A DNA stretch of 64,000 nt from Clusia tigrina. Lineage: Eukaryota > Arthropoda > Insecta > Diptera > Clusiidae. The stretch is taken from assembly GCA_920105625.2 (NCBI GenBank), contig OV050030.1:189405887-189469886 (forward strand), read 5' to 3'. The notes beneath the pieces are model-generated. The model worked only from the letters and a program-made list of their open reading frames with translations, made no database searches and had not been told where the DNA came from. Of the stretch, positions 46,851 to 56,199 are shown one piece after another (within the stretch, counting starts at the first letter, position 1; every line of letters starts with the position of its first letter). Position numbers and translations under genes: made by a program.

Positions 46851-47168
46851 ATCGGAGGTGCGTTGTGGCGCGGTGGTATCACAATGGAACCATGGTGGTC
46901 TGAGTGAGCTTGTCCTTGGACTGGCTGCCACATTAACCTAACCTAACCTAGTGTATAAGCAGGTGATCTTTTACTAAAGAGAAGATTTAACAACTGAACT
47001 GTAGCTCGTGTTAACTCGCGCGGTTAAGTTCAATATAGTGTACTCAGGCTGCCAATAAGGCGCTCAGCTAACGTCCAGTGTTTGATTCAGTGAATAGAGT
47101 TCAGGCGGATATAAAGCGACTGGCAAACACAAATATCTCAAACATTTTTTGGGCAACCGTTAGGATCC
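45865..47168. repeat. Partial array unit 6 (right edge)
   Basis: This truncated copy holds the 3' end of element A and about 218 bp of spacer. It alone keeps the 186 bp of RNase H coding sequence that starts at 46085-46090. In its last ~45 bp it differs from the other copies at several positions (for example ctcaaacatttttt against ctccaaaatttttt), then loses similarity after ggatcc at 47168. The rising divergence suggests homology-based exchange rather than a blunt break. Confidence 0.9.
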
Positions 47169-47176: not shown

Positions 47177-47181
47177 GTATG
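47177..47181. repeat. Target-site duplication, left (gtatg)
   Basis: The five bases gtatg immediately before the left LTR equal those immediately after the right LTR (56195-56199). Confidence 0.93.
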
Positions 47182-47660
47182 TGTTTTATTCCTAACTTTG
47201 ATTCCTCTACAGGCACTTTAACGTGGATAGGAGGTAGGAAGTTGAAATAGTTGTTTCAAGCACTTGAACTTGAAGAACTTGCTGGGATGAAATAAACTTC
47301 ACTTGTTGTAAGCTTGGTTATAATTCACGATTTTATTTGCCAGTTATGGCCTTATATACAATTCTAATTACAATTAATTACAATAACAAAATCTTAAGTG
47401 GCACGGTAAAATGAATGCACATACAAAATATTGAAGAATGCAAATGCAGCAAAGTAAGGCTATTGACTTATGGGTAACGAACTGGCGTTGACTTAAGGCC
47501 AATGCAACGTTATATTTGTTGGCAATATGCATGATTATTTCTGCTGACACGCCATCATACGGGTGTTTCACCTACTGCTACCAAAGGTAATTGACTTGGC
47601 GCGTGCTGTTGTGTAGCGGATGACGATGTTGTTGTGCCTACGAAAATTACTTTTCGTACA
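47182..47660 (-). repeat. BEL 3' LTR
   Basis: 479 bp, same length as the LTR at 55716-56194. By eye they differ at five positions (for example cctctacagg against cctatacagg and aacgtgg against aacctgg). On the minus strand a TATATAAG is at 47358-47351 and an AATAAA at 47337-47332. A 65-codon frame inside it (47571-47374) has no recognisable domain. Confidence 0.96.
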
Positions 47661-47684: not shown

Positions 47685-49450
47685 TCAACTCGCTTCTAAA
47701 TTGACGATGAATGGTGGTGGGTGTTGTCGCGGCGTTGGTTTTGGCTGAAATTTCTTGGACCTTTTGAATTTCCATATGAAGCATATGATGAGAACTGTTG
47801 CGGATATCAAAAGGGCGGTATAGCTGACCGCATGGTGGTGGTGACTGTTGGACCTTATTGTTTTTGGTAGGTCTCATGTGTTAGGCGCGTTTGGAGTGCG
47901 GTGAGGACGTCCAATTGAGTTTCAAATGTAATATTTTTCTCCTTGGGGGCCGTTGGTACTTCGTACATGGTGTTGATGGTACTAAAGTCTTTGAACCTGG
48001 CGTAGGATGTGTATGTGGAACTGGAATTGCTGTAGTGACCTTGAATTGTGATTACTGTAGTTTTGGCGATACAGTTAGGGTGCATGGTTAATATTCCAGA
48101 GCCTGTTATTGTTAGTTGAGCAATCTGGGTTCCACACACTGTTGACAGTTCAGTTTCTGATGTAGTGGAGAATAACCACTGATTCTTCTGATGCAATTGG
48201 GTCCACATAGAGCTACAATGCGATTGTGTGATGCTACAAATCTGTTGTAGCTTTGTTGTTGAATAGATTAATTTCGCAGGAAAATGCCGCTGATTCTCTT
48301 CCATAGGTCGGGTGGTTGCTTTCACATATGTAGGCGCCTTCCTTGGTTGAGAAGCATTTGTCCAGTTCATGTGAACTTAGTGGGATGTACTGATCACGAT
48401 GAGGGTTGACTGCTAGAAAGGAGGTATCTGGAGCTATTGTGTACATTGATTCGTTCATCATAATTGGAATCGGGATGAGTTGGAACAGGTCGAAATGTTG
48501 TTGATCGATTAGAGGTACCCTGATTAGAAATATGACCTTGCTCTTTGTGACTGCTCCTTCTGCTTTCATTATTTTATAGAATTGTACTATGTTGGATTGT
48601 TCAGTGGGCAGTTGTCGAGCTAATGGAAGGTGCGCCTTAATGGTGCTGATCTGAGCTTGTAGTTGTTGTGGTGTGAGTAATGTTGGACTGATTCTACCAT
48701 GGTGTGTATCTGTGAGCACATCGATGATGTCTGCCTGTATTCGTTGAAGGTTGGCCGCCATTAAGGACAATTGGGTTGCTGCTAAAATCAATAACTGCGC
48801 AATCTTAATTTGATTTGTGTTGCCGATCATGCTGTTATTTACTTCGTCTATGTCCTTTTGTAGCTCAGAAATTCGTGACCTTGTTGCTCGTTCGTCCTTC
48901 TTGATGACATTAATGGTAGAGTCAATGATGGAGGTATGATTTTGAAGTAAACGCTGCAGATGATTTTCGTTGGTTTTTGCTTCATTAATTGTGTGAGACA
49001 TTTCTTCCGCGTAGTCTGAGTCGAGAACACCGAACAGGGTGCGAGCAACGTTTCCAACTATATTGAGTGCCGCTCTTCTTTTACGCCCAATCGATAGCAT
49101 ATCTTTGTCCTGCACTAACTCATGCCGTGTCTGATTTTGGTTGTTGCTTAGTGTGTAACACGTGGAATTTTCTTCTACTCTTGTACATAAGTTCTGGAGT
49201 GCTAATATGCCGGAAGAGAAGGTATCGATTTCTGCCCAAAATGATGCCAACTCATAGTACACCACCATTTTCCATTCTGTTGTTATCATTCCTGTTGTCC
49301 CGATGCCTTCGAAATATATCCCAGGGTCCTTACCAAAGTTGTTGACATGGACTGAGCTGCTTAATATTGCCGGGATCAGTAGAAATGAAACAATAACTGT
49401 TACCAGGAGAGAGCTGGTCGGTGAGGCTCGCCTCCTTTTTGTTGGTATTA
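47685..49450 (-). pseudogene. env: BEL env-like (insect F/Env-type) gene, frameshifted
   Basis: The frame that carries the integrase C-terminus continues without a stop into a hydrophobic signal-like segment (SSLLVTVIVSFLLIPAILSS, about 49415-49356). A Cys-containing ectodomain follows, with a basic RKRR site at 49085-49074 just upstream of a Gly/Ala-rich segment (NIVGNVARTLFGVLD). This arrangement resembles the F/Env proteins of insect errantiviruses and baculoviruses; the assignment is from family knowledge. The frame stops at 48234. The C-terminal ectodomain continues in another frame (about 48270-47855, with Cys and NQWLF, GSGIL motifs). A hydrophobic anchor (47831-47772) with a basic tail lies in the third frame and ends at 47685. 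At least two frameshifts therefore break the gene. Confidence 0.75.
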
Positions 49451-51289
49451 CATTCGATTCGGTTGAACGAGGCTGGGTGGTTGTGAGATGGACGCTGTGG
49501 AGGTTATTATTACTGAGCTGGGAAGGTACACCGAGATCGTTATCCGCATCAGGGTCCGTTACTGGAAGGGGTGCGAGCCTGTGGATTGGACGCTTCCAGA
49601 CTCCAGTTGACGTTTGAATGTCAGCCACACCTACTGCGCCATCTTGGCCTTCGTATGTTTTGATTATCCTTCCTAGTGGCCAGCGAAGGGGTGGTAAGTT
49701 GTCTTCTTTGACTATTACCATCATACCTGGTCTTGCATTATCCACCTGATCTCTCCACTTGTGCCTGTATTGAAGTTCATTCAGATAATCTCGAGACCAT
49801 CGGTTCCAGAATTCATGCTTCAGATGCGATACTAGCTTCCATCTGGTTAACAATGAAGCTTTGGTCGATGTGGCAGCAGTGTCAATTGGTGCTGTTAGAG
49901 GTTCACCAATTAGGAAGTGTTCTGGCGTTAATGCGTGTAGATCCTTTGGGTCGGTTGACATGGGTGTTAATGGTCGCGAGTTTAAGATGGCTTCTATTTC
50001 AACCATCACCGTTTCCAATTCTTCATACGTTAATGAAGCACTGCCCACACTTCTTACAAAAAGAATTTTTTGCAGATTTGACTGCTGCTTCCCATAGTCC
50101 GCCAAAATGTGGTGCTCTTGGTGGAATGAAGTTGAATTTGATGCCCTTGCTGCTGCATGTCCTGATTACAGCTTCTTGTGCCTGTTCCCCATGAATTGCT
50201 TCTTTCAATTCTAAAAGCTGATTTTTGGCGCCCACGAAGTTTGTTGCGTTGTCGCAGTACAAATTTTGACAGTGCCCTCGTCGGCCTATGAAGCGCTTTA
50301 GGCATCCAATGAATGCTTCTGTGGTTAAATCGCTGACTACTTCAAGATGCACCGCCTTTGTGGCAAAGCAACAAAACACTGCTACATAAGCTTTGTGTGG
50401 TCTTTTTCCCTCGCGCCTTGAAATGAATCCAGAAAGGGCCGCAAAAGTCGACTCCTGAATTGATGAATGGTCGTGCTGGTTGAACTCGTTCTGCAGGTAA
50501 CCTCCCCATTATTTGTTGGAAAAGTTTAGGCTTCGCTTTGGTGTAGCGAACACAATGCTGTACAATTGACCGTGCCATGGATTTGCCTTTTATAGGCCAG
50601 AAGCGCTGACGAAGGTGGGCTAGTTTAGTCTGTGGCCCACAGTGCAAGTATTCTTTGTGATACTCTGTTACGAGAGTTTTTGGGTCGTTGTATGGAATGA
50701 TTATTGGATGCTTGGCATTATATGAAATGGTGGCTGCTTGAAGGCGTCCTCCCACCCGCATTATCCCTTCGGCGTCCACAAATGGGCTGAGGTTGGCTAA
50801 CTGACTGGTTTTGCTCAGATTGGGATTTTTGGCGATGGCCTTGATATCTTCTTTGAACTCAGATACTTGCATGGCGTGGATGATGATTGTGAGAGCTTTG
50901 CTTTGTTCTTGAGGAGTTAGCGCAGTGTGACTTCTTCGTTCCTTCTTCTTAGTCTTTGAATGATTTATAAATCTCAATACATATGCTACAATGTTTGTTA
51001 GTATTTTGAACGAGTTTTTGTTGTTAATTTTGTAGATCATATCCTCTAAGTCGTTTGCAGCCGTAATAGTTACTGTTACCGCGGTTCGTCTCCTTTCGAT
51101 CGTAGTCTCGATGGCCAGTTCTCTTGAGTATGGTTTTGGCCAATCGTCCATTTTTCTGTGAAGGAAGATAGGGCCATAAAACCACATATTGCAAGTGCTT
51201 AACTCTGACGGTGCTAATCCTCTGGATAGTATATCTGCTGGGTTTTCCTGAGAACGGACGTGTCGCCATTGGGAGGCAATAGAGAACTC
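49451..51289 (-). pseudogene. pol: BEL pol: integrase
   Basis: It follows an in-frame TAA at 51292-51290 in the same frame as RT/RNase H. The frame to 50342 holds the BEL-type N-terminal zinc region (HPIIIPYNDP, HKEYLHCGPQTKL, then C...C) and the first catalytic Asp region (VDFCGPFWIHF). A frameshift near 50395 moves the core to frame 50379-50023, with CDNATNFVGAKNQL (second Asp) and PHFGGLWEAAVKSAK (Glu). A further frameshift near 50065 leads to the C-terminal part in frame 50105 onward (ILNSRPLTP, LTPEHFLIG, LPPLRWPLGRI), which runs on into env. The D, D and E residues are present but in two frames. Confidence 0.9.
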
Positions 51290-53974
51290 TTAAATTCTTG
51301 CAATTATGTTAGCGACAAAGGTTTGGAATGACGTTGACTGTGCGTTGATCCATGAGAGAACAATTTGTGAGTCAGTCCACAGATACGTTGGGACAGCAGT
51401 TAAGCTCAGGTCCTCCTTTACTCGTGCTGCTAACTGGGCACTGAGTAATGATGAGCAGAGCTCCAGCCGTGGTATTGTTTGTGCTTTCAGTGGTGCTATG
51501 CGCGATTTTGCGCATAGAAGCCGTACTACAATTGTTCCGTCAGGGCGGATTGATCTAGCGTAAATTGCCGCACCGTATGCCTTCTCTGAGGCATCAGCGA
51601 ATGCATGCAATTGAAGTGATCTCTTAGTGCCTTCTTGAAATATGTGTCTGGCAATGTGGGTATTGTTGAGTTTGTTCAGGCTACTACGGAAAGTGGTCCA
51701 TTTAGTATGTAGTACAGTCGGCAGTTCGTCATCCCATGACAGCTTTGTCAGCCACAATTCCTGTATGAGAATTTTAGCTGTTACCACTATTGGTGCCAGT
51801 ACACCCAATGGATCGAATATTCTGGCTATATCCGAGACGATGGTTCTTTTGGTGATTCGATTATGTGTGTTGAGATTCACTTTGACGCAGAATTCATCAG
51901 TCTTCGGTAACCAGGTGAGTCCTAGGGTTTTGATTGCGTTGTCGGTGTCATTGTTGAAGTCAAGGTTGACTTCCTTGTCTTCGTTTGGAATAGATTGAAG
52001 TAATTTTGGATGGTTGGCGCACCATTTAAGCAATTGAAAACCTCCTTTGAGTAGAATATTCGTGAGCTGTTTTTGCGTTTCAATTGCTGTAATTAAACTG
52101 TCGGATCCAGTTAAACAGTCATCCACATAGAAGTTGTTTCGGAGAGCTTCAGCCCCAAGTGGATATTGAGAACTGTGCTCATTTCCTAACTGTTGAAGAC
52201 ACTTGATTGCCAAGTATGTTGCTGACCGAGTTCCGTATGTCAGCGTGTTTAGTTGAAAATATTCCAGGTTTTCGGTGGGATCTTTCCTCCAAACGATTAG
52301 CTGGTACTTTCGGTCGTCCGCATGAACCAAAATTTGTCTGTACATTTTTTGTATATCAGACGTGAAGACAAATCGTGGACATCGTAATCGCAGTAAAATC
52401 GTAAAGAGTTCGCTTTGAATCGTTGGCGCTGTGTGCATAAGGTCGTTGAGAGCTAAACCTGTTGACGTCTTCGCTGATTCATCAAACACGACTCTTAACT
52501 TCGTGGTGCTGCTTTCTGGCCGCTTGATGCAATGATGCGGGATGAAATAACAGGGTGATGTTATGCTGTCGAGATTTGTTTTTGTCATGTGCCCCAATGA
52601 TTCGTATTCGTCCATGAATGCGGTATACTGAACGCTCAAGTCCTTATCTGCTGCCAGGCGTCTCTCCAGCTGATAGAATCGATTGGTTGCGATTTTCTTT
52701 GAGTCGCCTAGAGCGGATGTATGTTCTGCGAATGGAATCTTGACTATGTATCGACCTTGATGGTTTCGAGTGGTGTTCAGTGCGAAATGAGTTTCACATA
52801 GTTTTTCTGTGGCAGACATTGTTGGTTTTGTGTCTTCCATTTCTGCAAGGTTCCAAAATTTTTCAATTGACTCATCTAACAGCTTATCCTCATTTGTCAG
52901 TACCCCACATGTTGCGGTGGTGGAATCTTGAGTGCCGATTTTTTCAGCTGCCACCCAACCAAGCACTGTGTTTTGTAGGATTGGGAGATTTTCTCCTAAC
53001 CTTATTTGCCCGGTTAGGAGTAGCTGATGGTGAAATTCAGCGCCAAGCAAAACGTCGATTTTGCCAGGGCGTGTGAAGTGAGGATCGGCTAGTATCACTT
53101 CTTTCGGTATCCTCCATGATGAGTTGTTCAGAGATTGTGCCGGTTGCATTGGGACAATATCTGGCAATACAAATGCCTCTAACCTTGTAGAAAAACTGCT
53201 TGTTCGTGACTGGAGTTGGATGTTGACGCGCTGGTTTGCCGTTTTTCTGCTGTGACCAATGCCTTCAATGCGGAGCGTTGCGTTGCTTGGAGTAATTGCT
53301 AGCCGCTTGATCAGCCGTTCGGTCACTAAGTTGACCTGTGAGCCGGAATCTAAGATGGCTCTGAACTCATTAGATTGTCCGTTGCTTGCCGTGATCGTTA
53401 CTCTGGCTGTTGCTAACAAGACATGGCCTTGGGATGCCGACAATGTATTGGCTGATGCTGATGTAACTGATGAATTGGCCGCTTTGGGTTCTATCGTATG
53501 TTTTGTTGATGGGAGGTTGGTTCCCAAGTGCAGCAGTGAATTGTGTTTTCTGTTAAATTTCAAACAGCCACGTGCGGTGCATGTTTTTGACGTATGGTCA
53601 CCCTTAAGGCAATTAACGCATAGTTGTTGCCTTTGAGTCCAATTTAGTCTAGCTACTGCTGATAATTGTAGAAATGATTTACAATAATACAGCGGATGGT
53701 TTGTGCCTTGACAAAAGTTGCATTTCGTAGTCGCAGTTGCAACTGTTGACACTGCCCTTGATGACTGTGGTCTTTCTCGTCCCCCGAGAGTTTCCAGATA
53801 TTGGAAACGATGCTCGAGGAAGTGCAGAAAGTCTTCCAATGTTTGAATCTCCTTAGGATTCTTTATTGACTGCTCATACAGCAAGTGACTCTGGCGGTCT
53901 AACTTCTTCACGAGGATATGCAGCAATATTGGGTCCCACGAAGATGTGTCGACTCCTATATTGTTGATGGCCAA
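51290..53974 (-). pseudogene. pol: BEL gag C-terminus, protease, RT and RNase H
   Basis: One long open frame of 894 codons. Two CCHC zinc knuckles lie at residues 85-98 (CNFCQGTNHPLYYC) and 119-132 (CVNCLKGDHTSKTC). The aspartic protease motif ILDSGSQVNLV has its DSG at 53350-53342. RT has FTSDIQKMYRQI and catalytic YVDD at 52129-52118. RNase H has HAFADASEKAYGAA, LELCSSLLSAQLA and WTDSQIVLSWI. The frame ends at TAA 51292-51290, inside the expected connection to integrase, so this is a nonsense mutation and not the natural end. It starts without an ATG because the upstream gag frame is shifted near 54085. Confidence 0.93.
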
Positions 53975-54049: not shown

Positions 54050-54739
54050 CCCTATGATTTGTTGGAGTAGTGTGCCAGCACTCGTTTATTGTGGTACCGG
54101 TCTTGGAGAAGGGTCCACGCTGTCTCATAATTCTCCTGGGTTAATGGTAGATGCCTGATTAATCTTTCAGCTTCTCCAGTGACATTCGACTTCAAGTACC
54201 ACATTTTTTCGTGTTGGGGCAATTGAAGTCTTGTGCACCATTTCTGAGAACATATCAAAGAATTGGTGCCATTTGAGGTAGCTGCCGTCAAATTTTGGTA
54301 TGGAAATTTTGGGCAAACGACATGCAAGCGATTCAGGTTGCAGTGAGGGAGTCGGAGCCCTTGCTTTGGTGGACAAAACAATCAACTGCTGATGAACCTG
54401 ATCTTCCATCTCCAGGTATGCTGAATGGTCGTACCCTGCGTCTTCTGGTGTTGATATTTCCTCAAAGATCTGGTAATTTATGGTCTCGATCTCGTCCCAT
54501 AGTTTGTTGATGCGTTTAATGTTACCCTCGTAGTACTCCTGTGGTTGAAAGTTCGACAATCCAGAAAGTAGCCGGCCAAGAGACATTAATAACGCTTGAT
54601 GCCGCTTATGTTGGGTGTGGCACCATTCACTTGCCTCTCTGTAGGCGTTGGAATCCTTGCGGCAGGGCGGGGTTCTATTTCCTTTGAATGAGTACGGTCT
54701 GCTGACGTTGCAGGTGCTGGACGATATTTGTACCACATT
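54050..54739 (-). pseudogene. gag: BEL gag, N-terminal part, start lost
   Basis: The frame at 54736-54167 carries a BEL-type gag N-terminus (ASEWCHTQHKRHQALLMSLG, LPKISIPKFDGSYLKWHQFF). A frameshift near 54240 moves it to the frame ending at 54052 (EKMWYLKSNVTGEAERLIRH, YETAWTLLQDRYHNKRVL), and another near 54085 links it to the long pol frame. In-frame sequence upstream contains no ATG before the bacterial-type segment begins at about 54740, so the natural start codon was lost there. Confidence 0.85.
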
Positions 54740-54935
54740 CGTATGTTTTTGATTGATATAATGGACTAATAAGTAATTTTACTTTACTGCTCCCATTACC
54801 ATTATCTTGATAGCTGAGTCCGTAAGCAACTCCATTCCCCTCAATTAATTCTACGTTTGTTGGATTAAAACCTATCGCTTCTTTAATTTCCGGTGTATTT
54901 GAGTTGATCCCGAGCAATCTTCTTAATATAGACAT
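54738..54935 (-). pseudogene. Unrecognised small frame in the bacterial-type segment
   Basis: An ATG-initiated frame begins at 54935 (MSILRRLLGINSNTPEIKEA) and remains protein-like to about 54740 (LLISPLYQSKTY), where it runs into gag sequence in a different frame. It diverges from nuoE. I do not recognise the family. It is probably the N-terminal end of a bacterial protein cut at the junction, but it could also be a chance frame. Confidence 0.45.
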
Positions 54936-55159
54936 AATTTTATTTAAAATATTAATAAAATGCTATTATGATTACTCCTGTGTGTTAATGTCAATGAAAA
55001 TTTTAACTAAAATTAAAAAATTAATATAATATTTTATACTAAAAGGTAAATATAAGCTTGAAGAGGGCTAAGAAGCTTTATGCTATTTCTCAAAAAACCA
55101 ACAATTGCAATCATTGGTTCTACAGGTATAATCTGTTAAAGTTTACACGAGTCTCATGA
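54936..55159. other. AT-rich intergenic region upstream of nuoE
   Basis: Very AT-rich DNA with runs such as aaattaaaaaattaatataat. A 19-codon frame at 55079-55138 (MLFLKKPTIAIIGSTG then a stop) resembles the start of a nucleotide-binding protein, but it is too short to assign. No clear promoter could be fixed. Confidence 0.4.
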
Positions 55160-55537
55160 ATGATAGAAAAAGAAGAGCAGTTTAGTTTTACATCAGAAAA
55201 CCTCAAGAAAGCGGGAAAGTTTATAGAGATGTATCCCAAAGGTAGAGAAGGTAGTGCTGTTATGCCTTTACTATATCTGGTTCAAGAGCAATGCGGATGG
55301 GTTTCTGAATCTGCTATGCGTTATGTTGCTGATATGCTGCATATTCCACATATTCGTGTATATGAAGTGGCAAATTTTTACACCATGTATAATTTAAAAC
55401 CAGTAGGCAAATATCTAATACAAATTTGTAGAACAACTCCTTGCTGGTTGTGCAATAGTGAAGAAGTTTTAAATACCTTTAAAAAAAAACTTGGAATCAA
55501 TATCGGTGAGACTACTAAAGATAATTTGTTCACTTTG
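55160..55537 (+). pseudogene. nuoE: NADH-quinone oxidoreductase subunit E (NuoE), truncated, Wolbachia-like
   Basis: NuoE is the 24-kDa-type subunit of respiratory complex I and binds a 2Fe-2S cluster. The frame from ATG 55160 shows the conserved series MYPKGREGSAVMPLLYLVQE, VADMLHIPHIRVYEVANFYT, MYNLKPVGKY and CRTTPCW, including the first cluster cysteine pair (C90 and C95), then LGINIGETTKDNLFTL. The family continues with an ECLGAC-type motif carrying the second pair. Here similarity stops at about 55537 and the frame reads on into BEL leader to 55729, so roughly the last quarter is missing. There is no mitochondrial presequence and no intron, which argues against the fly nuclear homologue NDUFV2. 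It lies antisense to the BEL element. Confidence 0.85.
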
Positions 55538-55696
55538 ATATGTTTTCCAGCTGCCTTATTGTGTTATCGCTTGTTTCGCTTCCTAGCGCACACTGATGTG
55601 AATTCTGCTTGTTGGTTCGCAACGTTGGACTTTGTCGGTTTGCTAAATGATAACACTGGTACTTGCACCAGGATATCGCAAATGGTACGTGTTTGG
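55538..55696 (-). other. BEL 5' leader
   Basis: Untranslated sequence between the primer-binding site and the bacterial-type segment. Its base composition differs from the adjacent AT-rich block. Confidence 0.6.
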
Positions 55697-55714
55697 ATCA
55701 CGTCGGGGTCATCA
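55697..55714 (-). other. Primer-binding site (tRNA-Trp type)
   Basis: On the minus strand tgatgaccccgacgtgat starts one base after the 5' LTR. It matches the complement of the insect tRNA-Trp 3' end (tggtgaccccgacgtgat, recalled from general knowledge) at 17 of 18 positions. In plus view the region also folds like the tRNA T-arm (acgtg, 7-nt loop, cacgt). Confidence 0.8.
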
Positions 55715-55715
55715 A

Positions 55716-56194
55716 TGTTTTATTCCTAACTTTGATTCCTATACAGGCACTTTAACCTGGATAGGAGGTAGGAAGTTGAAATAGTTGTTTCAAGCACTTG
55801 AACTTGAAGAACTTGCTGGGATGAAATAAACTTCAGTTGTTGTAAGCTTGGTTATAATTCACGATTTTATTTGCCAGTTATGGCCTTATATACAATTCTA
55901 ATTACAATTAATTACAATAACAAAATCTTAAGTGGCACGGTAAAATGAATGCACATACAAAATATTGAAGAATGCAAATGCAGCAAAGTAAGGCTATTGA
56001 CTTATAGGTAACGAACTGGCGTTGACTTAAGGCCAATGCAACGTTATATTTGTTGGCAATATGCATGATTATTTCTGCTGACACGCCATCATACGGGTGT
56101 TTCACCTACTGCTACCAAAGGTAATTGACTTGGCGCGTGCTGTTGTGTAGCGGATGACGATGGTGTTGTGCCTACGAAAATTACTTTTCGTACA
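55716..56194 (-). repeat. BEL 5' LTR
   Basis: 479 bp, partner of 47182-47660. On the minus strand TATATAAG at 55892-55885 and AATAAA at 55871-55866 are the likely promoter and polyadenylation motifs. Confidence 0.96.
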
Positions 56195-56199
56195 GTATG
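56195..56199. repeat. Target-site duplication, right (gtatg)
   Basis: Matches 47177-47181 exactly. Confidence 0.93.

Follow-up and report, generated by a model that had tools for sequence, protein, structure and literature searches.

A recent Wolbachia fragment in the gag region of one damaged BEL/Pao copy of Clusia tigrina, probably acquired by end joining

Does the Wolbachia-like DNA that lies inside an LTR retrotransposon of the fly Clusia tigrina travel with the element as part of its leader, or did it enter a single copy by accident? The DNA analysed is a stretch of 64,000 nucleotides (the window; C1:189405887-189469886) within a 429.8-Mb contig of an assembly of 1,214,047,780 bases in 666 contigs. 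A first-pass annotation had recognized bacterial DNA with a clear NuoE start at 54740-55537, placed it between the primer-binding site and gag of a BEL/Pao element with matched LTRs and an intact target duplication, and proposed that, if other genomic copies share it, the element had mobilized it.

The host element and its surroundings

The description of the element is borne out. Its two 479-bp LTRs, aligned with each other, agree at 474 of 479 positions with zero gaps; the short target duplication GTATG is intact, and the element is read on the minus strand (Table 1). Only under an assumed fly rate would the 5/479 LTR divergence put the element's age near one million years, which is not a firm date. 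Pfam matches on the element (Peptidase_A17, aspartic protease, RVT_1, integrase zinc-binding, DUF5641, and Baculo_F), together with alignment to relatives, give the Pao-type order gag, protease, reverse transcriptase, Peptidase_A17, integrase; the RVT_1 match lies below Pfam's cut-off, and its frame aligns with the relatives throughout. A search with the 894-residue pol frame scored 7990 candidates and returned 431 matches; among the 120 listed, the eight best relatives are 49-53% identical and all carry fly names, with Rhagoletis (53%), Teleopsis, Musca, and Haematobia represented. The same frame found no relative in the viral, phage, and plasmid collections, which may lack the records closest to the window's genome.

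Besides the insert, the copy has further damage: the frame from 54070 to 50402 is interrupted by one stop, near 51290, and the alignment to a relative changes frame around 54070-54204, 50405, and 50060. Its Baculo_F match marks an env-like part, a feature that the accessible text of PMC3118150 reports for only a few BEL/Pao elements. To the left of the element, a 9.16-9.19-kb unit is repeated in tandem about five times across window positions 1-47168; its copies are more than 99% alike and contain reverse transcriptase frames of LINE type and copia type. Homology between the repeats stops at 47168, and 8 bases separate this point from the BEL target duplication.

Table 1. Coordinates of the BEL/Pao copy and of the Wolbachia DNA within it (window positions)
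Feature	Position	Strand	Basis
GTATG target duplication, left	47177..47181	n/a	Direct reading
LTR, 3' in element sense	47182..47660	-	474/479 identical to 55716-56194, gapless
End of integrase region (DUF5641) and env-like part (Baculo_F)	48234..50105	-	Pfam
Integrase zinc-binding part (Integrase_H2C2)	50342..51187	-	Pfam; frame shared with 51290..53974, interrupted near 51290 by a single stop
Gag C-terminal part, protease, reverse transcriptase, Peptidase_A17	51290..53974	-	Pfam
Remaining gag, downstream (element sense) of insert	54167..54722	-	Aligns with P0001 (residues 131-277) and other relatives
Wolbachia chromosomal fragment	54723..55536	+	Gapless, 791/814 to L069
5' end of Wolbachia hypothetical gene, cut at left junction	54726..54935	-	ORFs, alignment
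5' part of Wolbachia nuoE, cut at right junction	55160..55536	+	PF01257; residues 1-126 identical to P0121
Gag island, 42 bp, between insert and deletion	55537..55578	-	Comparison with other copies
Site of ~164-bp deletion, probable gag start lost	55578..55579	n/a	Stretch in 23/23 measurable other copies, absent here
Element sequence, 5' LTR to gag	55579..55715	-	86-97% to 23 other copies
LTR, 5' in element sense	55716..56194	-	474/479 identical to 47182-47660
GTATG target duplication, right	56195..56199	n/a	Direct reading

Identity of the bacterial fragment

The bacterial stretch stands as Wolbachia DNA, with its ends moved from 54740-55537 to 54723-55536 and a second, divergent Wolbachia gene start added to that of nuoE. 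Over these 814 bp, 791 positions (97.2%) are identical, without a gap, to locus L069 of genome G038, the best genome; without the bases shared at the junctions, the Wolbachia-derived part is 54726-55534. Some match to the insert was found in all 41 genomes searched, which a tool had assigned to the same genus as G003 (titled Wolbachia pipientis; source of locus L004). The insert and its nuoE found no relative in the viral, phage, and plasmid collections, where records very near the window's genome may likewise be missing.

The NuoE start that had been claimed is confirmed: the nuoE part is stop-free and comprises 125 full codons plus two bases out of 166 codons, with a PF01257 match; residue 126 is unchanged across the junction, one base of its codon being supplied by the element. 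All 126 residues are identical to those of P0121, a protein cluster of 195 members that is named after a group A Wolbachia. At the nucleotide level, nuoE differs from that of genome G035 at 6 sites, all at codon position 3 and with zero residue changes, from L069 at 9 sites (2 residue changes), and from L079 at 8 sites (2 residue changes). Comparison with known strains thus indicates a recent piece, from a donor strain near group A, without clear sign of decay. A distant donor, considered after an earlier 24-locus scan in which identity was at most 88%, is ruled out by the identity to P0121 and the 97.2% match to L069; nearer strains were evidently absent from that scan. We also rejected a patchwork of several Wolbachia pieces: the intergenic match to L002 and L004 is broken, but that to L069 is gapless. 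In both of the former loci (L002 3503-5001, L004 3290-5001), the hypothetical gene and nuoE are separated by ~1.5-1.7 kb that includes extra open frames; the spacing is 0.2-0.3 kb in the insert and in L001.

The fragment thus comes from a Wolbachia chromosome, and both of its genes, nuoE on the plus strand and the hypothetical gene on the minus strand, are truncated. Host element sequence flanks it on both sides in a single contig and the LTRs lie beyond, so the claim that Wolbachia DNA sits within the body of an LTR retrotransposon holds. Because the insert spans two divergent gene starts, it more likely derives from a DNA fragment than from a single transcript, and template switching onto a Wolbachia mRNA is disfavoured on the same ground.

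The gag site and the junctions

Whether the fragment moves with the element can be read from other copies. Of the 349 candidates that a query with the adjoining gag stretch brought up in the assembly, 40 were scored (identity 85-100%, window included), and 30 of these were read as loci, the window being one. Among the 40 scored of 349 candidates, the insert is absent from all 29 other copies read, three of which contain stray matches to it of 15, 18, and 51 bases. Measurement against all three anchors was possible in 23 of the 29; the other six are without the third anchor. At the insert site, 22 of these 23 measurable copies have 91-107 bp of ordinary element sequence (exactly 105 bp in 17) and one has 611 bp. 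The stretch deleted from the window copy at 55578 measures 163-168 bp in 21 of the 23, and 132 and 142 bp in two. Read by eye in the element sense, this second stretch in copy L039 has a start codon, after which the translation resembles the N terminus of the relative P0001; the first 130 residues of 16 relatives give only weak matches to the window's element (best E 0.001).

Comparison with ordinary copies thus shows that the Wolbachia DNA replaces ~105 bp of coding sequence near the N terminus of gag, and that the probable gag start was lost with the ~164-bp deletion 42 bp away. A position between the primer-binding site and gag therefore cannot be upheld, since in most copies read this place is taken by ~105 bp that encode the N-terminal part of gag; what had been taken for a leader is a damaged gag start. 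The first proposal, capture of Wolbachia sequence by the element and its spread within the leader, would suit a segment between the LTRs and within the element body, but is contradicted by the assembly and extremely unlikely: there is a single full-length match in the whole assembly, none of the 29 other copies read has the segment, the insert lies in gag coding sequence, and divergent genes make entry as a single RNA by template switching improbable. The uniqueness of the full-length match comes from a search of the whole 1.21-Gb assembly with the insert (18 candidates, all scored; 19 matches), in which that match is the window itself and no second near-identical nuoE was found.

The junctions were read from the assembly. 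At the left one, most ordinary copies have GGATGATGGG, the window GGACGATATTTG, and Wolbachia L069 GCTGATATTTG, with GAT common to them (54723-54725). At the right one, the corresponding sequences are CATTGATAT in most ordinary copies, CACTTTGATAT in the window, and CACTTTAAAA in Wolbachia L001, and TT is common (55535-55536). The microhomology is therefore 3 bp on the left and 2 bp on the right, lengths that can also be explained by chance. We considered and rejected a 5-bp target duplication, GATAT, around the Wolbachia piece: the right GATAT is element sequence, present in most ordinary copies, and at the left end only GAT can be common to element and Wolbachia. Because comparison with ordinary copies and Wolbachia leaves only GAT and TT shared, the occurrence of GATAT at both ends is a coincidence.

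Origin of the insert and relation to known systems

The account to which we give good confidence is a recent, single nuclear Wolbachia fragment (NUWT) acquired via end joining in one dead BEL/Pao copy, as far as its junctions are known from the assembly. A double-strand break in the element DNA would have been closed by end joining, with Wolbachia DNA taken up as filler and some element DNA lost; short microhomology and loss of target DNA fit such a repair. The break presumably struck an already integrated copy, which the uniqueness of the insert favours. Thereby, or earlier, the copy would have lost the ability to make Gag from its own start; the fragment itself would be neutral debris. Weighing against this account are the two close lesions, more than a single clean break would need.

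There is a small chance that the order was the reverse: a hybrid of the Wolbachia piece and element cDNA would have formed before integration, either in the nucleus or in the cytoplasm, and integrase would then have inserted it. The perfect target duplication, the near-identical LTRs, and the two neighbouring lesions within one short stretch would agree with this, as would the Pao-NUWT enrichment reported in many, not all, filarial nematodes (PMC12693587, in its accessible part); but the same observations also fit insertion after integration, and one copy was found in the assembly, so there was no later spread. About as small is the chance that BEL/Pao cDNA acts as a carrier, cytoplasmic Wolbachia DNA being end-joined to the unintegrated element and inserted by its integrase; if true, this would explain the nematode enrichment, and the present copy would be a base-level example from a fly. 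An assembly chimera of host element reads and Wolbachia reads we regard as very unlikely. The reliance of the junctions on the assembly and the recent, undecayed state of the bacterial sequence would be compatible with it, but both junctions lie within one element copy that has its own LTRs and target duplication, and element bases are lost at the site, as in repair. With no second near-identical nuoE, there is also no Wolbachia contig in the assembly to misjoin, although such a contig may have been filtered out.

The locus resembles the known NUWTs of insects and nematodes, which like it are truncated fragments of the Wolbachia chromosome within nuclear DNA and show no sign of function; such fragments can be as short as a few hundred bp (PMC12693587, accessible part). 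It differs from them in that the junctions are resolved inside gag of one LTR element whose target duplication is intact. According to the same portions of PMC12693587, NUWTs of filarial nematodes are strongly enriched for Pao in many species and show no repeat association in six. Both cases associate Wolbachia fragments with BEL/Pao elements; the filarial one is a statistical overlap in nematodes, and ours is one fly case, followed base by base. In Drosophila ananassae, as the available text of PMC4299567 describes, retrotransposons have integrated into a nuwt, so that Wolbachia DNA and host retrotransposons are again nested in a fly; the nesting is reversed here, a small nuwt lying inside a retrotransposon. 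Movement of a BEL element between D. ananassae and Wolbachia is mentioned in the accessible part of PMC3118150. Bacterial DNA embedded in transposable elements is also known from Curculio, where the portions of a preprint at hand (PMC13419823) place 97%, 93%, and 94% of the Rickettsia-derived pieces of three species in Mavericks; some of those Rickettsia-derived genes are multi-copy, in contrast to the one unshared LTR element copy described here.

Numts acquired by end joining, for which junction microhomology is documented in the accessible text of PMC2567098, resemble the present case in that microhomology and in the uptake of foreign DNA at breaks. According to that text, 54% of numt integrations occur without deletion, whereas here the source is Wolbachia and ~105 bp were lost. 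In the open-licence literature, to the extent that its text was accessible, we found no earlier insect BEL or LTR element that carries a Wolbachia piece. At the present locus, a recent entry of symbiont DNA into a chromosome at a retroelement can be followed to the base. The locus adds a single data point to the nematode Pao-NUWT association and does not demonstrate that retroelements spread bacterial DNA. The undamaged version can be read in sister copies of the same assembly, which makes the repair signature legible.

The assembly search also returned other Wolbachia-like sequence. An older, decayed NUWT with nuoE lies at C1:30568432-30568816 (two matches, 78-79%); at this locus (L063 4433-5425; G000:C1:30.568 Mb) pieces of nuoE and of the next gene are split by other sequence, and no BEL match occurs within the 9.9 kb read. 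A 64-bp Wolbachia-like fragment accounts for 16 matches at C1:390.97-391.38 Mb (83-88%), 14 of them in 7 inverted pairs ~2.5 kb apart (for example, L064 3014-3077 and 5565-5628). A small CBM39-like frame, below Pfam's cut-off, lies near these fragments, and the 64 bp of Wolbachia DNA were apparently amplified along with a local duplicated array.
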